Source: Desulfobacterales bacterium
GTDB lineage: Bacteria > Desulfobacterota > Desulfobacteria > Desulfobacterales > UBA11574
Reading direction: 5' to 3'
Assembly: GCA_030145345.1 (NCBI GenBank)
Contig: JAQYVT010000008.1
Span: 1-62,816, forward strand
DNA: 62,816 nt
In this document: positions 52,146 through 52,646 of the stretch, one piece after another
Layout of the letters: every line of letters begins with the position of its first letter
How positions within the stretch are numbered: position 1 is the first letter of the stretch
Position numbers and translations under genes: made by a program
Notes under the pieces: generated by a model
Databases searched by the model: none
Seen by the model: only the letters and a program-made list of their open reading frames with translations
Told to the model about the DNA's origin: nothing

Positions 52146-52248
52146 ATTCCGATTCCTAATGTTTTAATTTATCGATGATTTGCGATATCAGTTCTTGGGC
52201 GGTTTTAAATTTGGTTCTTCTCCAATTTAGTTGGAAAAGAGGGTTCGA

Positions 52249-52273
52249 GGATTCAAGGGGTCAAGGGTCCAAG
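52249..52273 (+). repeat. 25-bp terminal inverted repeat, left
   Basis: GGATTCAAGGGGTCAAGGGT-CCAAG; the complement of 52530-52554 with one mismatch (24 of 25). Confidence 0.75.
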
Positions 52274-52512
52274 CGTTTGTTATCCAATGATTTTATCAGC
52301 GCTTTGAGCATCCTTTCAACTTCTTCTGTATCATCCTTGAGAGCCTTTAAATTTTCTTTATTTATATAATTTAAATCACCTGAAAGCAGGACCTGGGTCT
52401 CCAATTCGCAAACAGAACCCTAGGCAATATATAATGACCTCAAGTCGTCTTCAGTTGTCTTCCTGCCATATCCTTCTGCTTTTGCCAAACTTTCAGATCT
52501 CTTTAATTCTTA
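52261..52512 (-). pseudogene. Broken four-helix-bundle protein gene (IVP/avd-like, TIGR02436 family)
   Basis: The minus strand reads AKAEGYGRKTTEDDLRSLYI then A-stop-GSVCELETQVLLSGDLNY and INKENLKALKDDTEEVERML to a stop at 52261. This matches the C-terminal two thirds of the four-helix-bundle family (AEGYGRxT...RSLYIAyGSvcELETQ). A TAG at 52420-52422 replaces the expected Tyr, and the N-terminus is missing. It sits inside the 25-bp inverted repeats. The rest of the 52146-52646 gap shows nothing. Confidence 0.65.
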
Positions 52513-52529
52513 AGCATTTCACTCGAATC

Positions 52530-52554
52530 CTTGGATCCTTGACCCCTTGAATCC
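52530..52554 (-). repeat. 25-bp terminal inverted repeat, right
   Basis: Pairs with 52249-52273; the two enclose the four-helix-bundle pseudogene in a 306-bp unit. Confidence 0.75.
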
Positions 52555-52646
52555 TTTCAAAATCATCCACTCTTTTGGAGATGATTCTTTATATTTAAGG
52601 TGGAAAACAATGAAGCAAAGAAAAGCGGGTTTAAGTTAAAGATCTG

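Follow-up and report, generated by a model that had tools for sequence, protein, structure and literature searches.

The window, as we call the whole stretch of 62,816 nucleotides of Desulfobacterales DNA analysed here, contains at positions 52213-52587 a 375-bp miniature transposable element (MITE) of ISL3 type that carries a four-helix-bundle gene cassette, the gene reading on the minus strand and the extent of the element being given by the ends common to its copies. The element lies outside 23S rRNA, between two protein genes that we take to be a response-regulator gene on one side and lipA on the other. Its sole gene content is a remnant of a TIGR02436 gene, and it has no transposase gene of its own. 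One transposon end, GGTTCTTCTCCAATTTAGTTGGA (52213-52235, plus strand, 0 mismatches), is followed inward by a short palindrome, a predicted hairpin; the other reads GAATCATCTCC on the minus strand (52577-52587; consensus GGATCATCTCC). Further inward lie two arrays of 8-nt units that together form an inverted repeat of 26 nt, with 25 positions paired (96% complementary) and 256 nt between the arms. The left arm (52248-52273, plus strand, units of the AAGGRNYC type) is the 3' arm of the gene and contains its stop codon, TGA at 52263-52261 of the minus strand; the right arm (52530-52555, minus strand) is the 5' arm and is part of a tandem repeat of period 8 at 52525-52556. Between them, on the minus strand, 52285-52479 encode the C-terminal portion of a TIGR02436 protein (profile positions 43-108 of 109, with one TAG; the match scores 58.8 bits, the cut-off being 24), and 52480-52517 are a remnant of the gene start. 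Comparison with the fuller copy on contig C22 shows that this remnant retains an ATG (52517-52515), with a TAA four codons on, and has lost profile positions 1-42. The first-pass annotation of this DNA had described a 25-nt inverted repeat at 52249-52554 enclosing a four-helix-bundle pseudogene and overlapping its stop; the repeat proves to be real at the slightly greater length given above, and both the enclosed pseudogene and the overlap with the stop are confirmed.

When the window is aligned by BLAST with the sister genome G002 (locus L378, contig C102), homology ends at 52213 and resumes at 52596, and the sequence between these breakpoints measures about 6.0 kb in G002 as against 382 bp in the window. 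From its open reading frames, we take the stretch in G002 to consist of a hybrid histidine kinase gene and two binding-protein genes. Genomes G001 and G009 likewise run on into the kinase at the left side, and the lineage of the window therefore seems to have lost this stretch beside the element. A plain insertion at the site was considered as well and is ruled out by the same comparisons. The 8 bp flanking the element on the left (TTAAATTT, 52205-52212) are native sequence in G002 and differ at 3 places from those flanking it on the right (TTTATATT, 52588-52595), such that the window copy has no exact 8-bp target duplication. The target duplications that the first-pass annotation had suggested looking for are found in exact form at other copies, described below, and not at this one. 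With profile positions 1-42 gone, stops in the reading frame, no exact duplication and an adjoining deletion of some 6 kb, the window copy is dead.

Copies, ends and carriers of the element

A BLAST search of the own genome with the element returned 65 matching pieces, and a profile search of the genome gave 52 matches to TIGR02436, many of which are partial; since inverted repeat and gene both recur across the genome, their pairing is more than chance. At least ten contigs (C21, C47, C72, C78, C94, C109, C121, C125, C139 and C179) have a copy within their first ~400 bases, as if the repeat had broken the assembly, and the true copy number may accordingly be higher. Comparison of ten copies showed that their common sequence extends past both arms, reaching GGTTCTTCTCCAA... 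(52213 in the window) at one end and GGATCATCTCC... (52587) at the other; the arms are therefore subterminal and not the terminal repeats of the transposon, as had been supposed from the window alone. Four of the ten copies (L018, L022, L025 and L026) share a nested palindromic insert, CCTGTTAAATA...TATTTAACAGG, at profile position 42/43, and copies with a broken gene thus seem to have spread.

The ends that recur beside target duplications are GGTTCTTCTCC (from 52213 in the window) and GGAGATGATTC (to 52587). With up to 3 mismatches allowed, the genome contains 57 instances of the first of these and none of its backward control. Partner ends were sought within 100-1400 bp, the duplication playing no part in the choice, and 33 of the 57 ends could be paired, the other 24 having no recognisable partner. 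Exact 8-bp duplications were found at 14 of the 33 paired ends and duplications with at most one mismatch at 16 of 33, compared with 9 of 1056 cross pairs at the latter threshold. The 14 exact ends come from 12 small elements plus, with both of its ends counted, the 1351-bp ISL3 insertion sequence described below. The duplications are 90% A+T. Three gene-less small elements of 117, 120 and 125 bp have duplications with 2, 1 and 1 mismatches, respectively. At up to 2 mismatches the ends are present in 24 of the 60 genomes searched, own genome included, and in genomes of the same genus full-length TIGR02436 genes lie inside elements with ISL3-type ends; an intact copy in one of them (L153) is flanked by the exact duplication TTTTGTTT and encodes a 123-aa protein that scores 133 bits to TIGR02436.

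Members of the ISL3 family begin with GG and generate 8-bp AT-rich target duplications. The elements described here share both traits, and their ends are also those of a 1351-bp element at C186:7139-8489 (L112), which contains a pair of neighbouring PF01610 (ISL3) matches, each in a different frame, and is flanked by the exact duplication TTAAAACT; its left end is similar over ~40 bp to the longer end of one MITE subfamily. This element holds the only clear ISL3 transposase of the genome, the third PF01610 match being a 26-position fragment under the cut-off. Unlike ISL3-family insertion sequences and their known MITEs, the elements are 117-742 bp long, lack a transposase, carry a foreign gene cassette and have two ends that differ from each other (GGTTCTTC and GGATCATC). 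The shared ends and the 8-bp duplications in the family identify them as ISL3-type miniature elements that were presumably moved in trans. The feature at 52213-52587 is thus shown to be a decayed, non-autonomous ISL3-type element that encloses a TIGR02436 gene and whose arms are inner arrays of 8-nt units; the earlier proposal that gene and repeats move as a unit holds as regards a mobile unit and fails as regards the repeats, mobility residing in the ISL3-type ends with their 8-bp duplications rather than in the 26-nt arms.

The transposase of the 1351-bp element may act in trans on the shared ends and so spread the MITE, an activity that has to be assumed because the protein is read in two frames. 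The same arrangement of two overlapping frames is found in G015 (L361) and G047 (L334), and the run of eight A at the junction in all three genomes suggests a possible programmed frameshift rather than decay. The transposase family was found in 8 of 40 genomes, own genome included.

TIGR02436 genes also occur in a second kind of small element, 483 bp long on contig C158 of the own genome (L144, 1409-1892) and 453 bp long in G002 (L183, 467-920). Both have GTAACTACTCAGG ends and exact 8-bp duplications, TTAAATTC and TATTTTAA respectively, and here the gene comes with an array of the CTTCAGC type. The GTAACTACTCAGG ends are reminiscent of those of IS66. Two or more kinds of DNA element thus serve as carriers of the cassette. 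The arms of 8-nt units accompany the gene and not the transposon, and gene and arrays would form a separate cassette that has been taken up by no fewer than two types of miniature transposon, those with ISL3-type and those with GTAACTACTCAGG ends. The element in the window illustrates an added route of copying within the genome, in which the cassette rides on ISL3-type and other miniature transposons.

Inverted arrays beside TIGR02436 genes

Seven full-length, stop-free TIGR02436 genes of the genome have no ISL3 ends within 250 bp (C86:24063, C115, C38, C144:22149, C184, C147 and C7), and six of the seven have inverted short-repeat arrays of their own, each built of different units. The first-pass annotation had held that intact family members without such repeats in this genome would speak against its reading; as far as ISL3 ends are concerned such members exist in these seven genes, and as far as inverted arms as such are concerned six of them do possess arrays. 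Among the units at genes of the own genome without ISL3 ends are CAGGGAT, GGTGATG, GGAAAGA, TTTAGGCATT and GGAGTACT.

The arrays were assessed by comparing the 250 bp upstream of each gene with the reverse complement of the 250 bp downstream, against 60 dinucleotide shuffles. Eight genes of the own genome without ISL3 ends were tested, seven of them stop-free, and seven of the eight beat all 60 shuffles, the exception being L142 on C147. The test was extended to 77 loci of this order (8 from the own genome, 29 returned and 40 from listed matches, best scores first) and to a broad set made of the best 80 of 142 relatives of one query, whose record titles name Bacteroidota, Chloroflexi, Planctomycetes, Nitrospirae, CPR and others. 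Short flanks or the lack of a recognisable stop led to the removal of 5 of the 80 broad loci and 7 of 30 ParE control loci before counting, and the control with shifted windows covered 67 of the 75 remaining broad loci. Inverted similarity of the flanks exceeded all 60 shuffles at 57/77 loci of the order and 44/75 broad loci (20 and 31 loci, respectively, were not positive), as compared with 0/23 ParE genes of the same genomes and 1/67 shifted windows in the same loci. Direct-repeat similarity did so at 15/77 and 7/75 loci, 2/23 ParE genes and 3/67 shifted windows. Relatedness weakens counts of single loci; when proteins were clustered at 60% identity, a positive member was present in 29 of 35 clusters of the order and in 5 of 11 broad clusters.

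A period of 7 nt predominates in these arrays, being found in 67 of 154 flanks of the order (period 8 in 13, period 9 in 12) and 54 of 150 broad flanks, against 0 of 46 and 3 of 134 control flanks. The arrays adjoin the start and stop codons, at a median of 16-18 nt past the stop, and their units vary among genes of one protein type, even related ones. Among the MITE copies the arms differ in number and order of units, and copies that are broken or have no gene at all retain their arrays. Many TIGR02436 genes, of this order as well as of other phyla, are thereby shown statistically to be flanked by gene-specific inverted arrays of short units, mostly of 7 nt, and this association between the gene family and inverted arrays of heptamers is the larger result of the analysis.

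The arrays have a polarity, in that the upstream (5') arm is richer in G than in C at 49 of the 57 positive loci of the order and at 41 of the 44 positive broad loci. Neighbouring genes were scored with simple, crude open reading frame calls, which left 7 of the 80 broad loci and 16 of the 77 loci of the order without a score. Of the 73 scorable broad loci, 65 have genes of the same orientation on both sides, with median gaps of 54 and 52 bp, and the downstream neighbour is co-oriented at 72; the corresponding setting between same-orientation genes was found at 44 of 61 loci of the order and at 5 of 23 ParE genes, the latter being a weak control in this respect because their short partner genes escape calling. 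Two tests of whether the arms pair as RNA gave null results. No excess of arm mismatches that would form G.U pairs in the sense transcript over A.C mismatches was seen (116 versus 126 and 69 versus 79). Nor, across 22 elements of the MITE family, did the two arms of one copy fit each other better than arms of other copies (mean 17.0 versus 17.4, mean rank 0.545). Predicted folds of the window element (-111.1 kcal/mol, z -5.4) and of the C22 copy (-143.9 kcal/mol, z -4.0) are stronger than those of all 100 shuffles in each case, as the inverted repeat itself entails. Rfam gave no match up to E 1 for L009, L018 and L048.

At six loci in Flavobacteriaceae (L261, L262, L266, L268, L272 and L281), TIGR02436 genes precede one common downstream gene, which we take to be sdhB-like, and at two loci in other Bacteroidota (L267 and L306) the TIGR02436 gene stands before an lpd-like gene; units are similar within these groups and the order of the arrays differs.

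Relation to rRNA intervening sequences and alternative accounts

Intervening sequences of rRNA have been known for decades, their origin and role being unexplained. One report describes the intervening sequence (IVS) in the 23S rRNA of Coxiella burnetii as having an S23p open reading frame, a 28-bp stem of terminal inverted repeats and, upstream of the reading frame, tandem GACAGAT heptamers whose number varies by strain; RNase III cuts this IVS out in vitro (PMC4990558). The cassettes resemble the Coxiella IVS in protein family, in the paired inverted ends beside the reading frame, in the short tandem repeats upstream and in the strong, here predicted, fold of the transcript (PMC4990558). The window element differs from it in lying outside 23S rRNA, in having 8-nt units on both sides and in being placed inside a DNA transposon, and cleavage is reported there for Coxiella in vitro only (PMC4990558). 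Of the features of an S23p-type IVS, a TIGR02436/S23p reading frame (broken in the window, intact in L153) and complementary ends able to form a stem are present, and a site in a 23S rRNA helix is not.

Because the Coxiella IVS has the same anatomy, we read the cassettes as the likely counterparts, outside rRNA, of the S23p-coding intervening sequences. This is the least certain step of the explanation; in it, the transcript of the cassette would fold so that the gene forms the loop of a stem, this stem would be cleaved by RNase III, and such cleavage would let the insert occupy transcribed sites between operon genes at little cost. Taken as a whole, the combination of a decayed ISL3-type element, inverted arrays linked to the gene, mobilisation in trans, a separate cassette and a counterpart of the IVS is the explanation we consider probable. 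The similar arrays beside many genes of the family link the rRNA insert to elements in ordinary operons.

Heptanucleotide repeats are described as an abundant and little-explained class in many bacterial genomes in two papers (PMC4679880, PMC4692102), which report heptameric repeats in Xanthomonas and Nostoc, two Xanthomonas genomes having 70 and 75 pairs in inverted orientation (PMC4692102), and in Beggiatoaceae (PMC4679880). These are, like ours, intergenic arrays of 7-nt units; the terms 'helix bundle' and 'S23' are absent from the first of these accounts (PMC4692102) and 'four helix' from the second (PMC4679880), and neither makes a link to the TIGR02436 family. A literature search turned up no work in which TIGR02436 genes located outside rRNA are tied to inverted arrays of heptamers; it left bioRxiv and most subscription journals uncovered, and such a link may exist in print. 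Tentatively, and with more doubt than confidence, we propose that S23p/TIGR02436 cassettes may be bacteria-wide elements that lie in sense inside operons, are bounded by inverted heptamer arrays and are excised from mRNA by RNase III as IVSs are from 23S rRNA, many of the unexplained heptanucleotide repeats being their arms or footprints. If TIGR02436 genes and inverted heptamer arrays do make up one kind of cassette, both puzzles become testable together, through the target of the ring protein, the cutting of mRNA at the arms and the way in which a unit is alike in the two arms of a gene yet specific to that gene.

The alternative that survives best places the origin of the inverted arrays at the DNA level, through slippage and fold-back copying of the unit between the arms, with no role for RNA and with the cassette as a passive passenger. 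Such an origin agrees with the absence of a G.U preference, with arms that are not matched copy by copy in the MITE family, with units that are unlike even in related genes and with the strain-variable heptamer number reported for Coxiella (PMC4990558). However, a DNA process blind to strand would not predict that the G-rich arm is nearly always the upstream one, nor that the cassettes lie in sense within operons, and we regard a purely DNA-level origin as possible, if on the unlikely side.

Alternatively, the arrays may be sites at which a four-helix-bundle ring binds its own mRNA or DNA, in which case the gene would be an autoregulated operon gene useful to the host rather than a selfish cassette. 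Among solved structures, 2gsc (XCC0516 of Xanthomonas, E 1e-23) is the closest to the L153 protein, and this relative is a ring, described as a homopentamer in the Coxiella report (PMC4990558); the arrays abut start and stop codons, and in several Flavobacteriaceae the same operon genes again have a TIGR02436 gene upstream. Against autoregulation stand the differing units among genes of one protein type and the persistence of arrays in gene-less and broken copies, which together make it improbable in our estimation. Movement by way of a reverse transcriptase, with the protein in the partner role that Avd has in diversity-generating retroelements, is suggested by membership of the same four-helix-bundle fold family and by a weak profile match of the L153 protein; the match lies below the Avd cut-off, however (NF033474, 36.5 bits versus 80), no PF00078 match at E<=0.001 was found in the genome (completeness 97.8%), and terminal inverted repeats with target duplications are of the DNA-transposon type, making this route very improbable. 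That the 26-nt arms are true terminal inverted repeats and the enclosed unit moves by itself, as 25 of 26 paired positions around a gene might suggest, is scarcely credible, given that homology among copies passes the arms to the GG ends, that the exact 8-bp duplications are found beyond these ends, that homology with G002 stops at 52213 and not at 52248, and that unit number and order of the arms vary among copies.

Elsewhere in the window, at 1698-1744, a 7-nt array of CTGACCC/CTGATCC units stands with no TIGR02436 match nearby and may be a solo array or a footprint.
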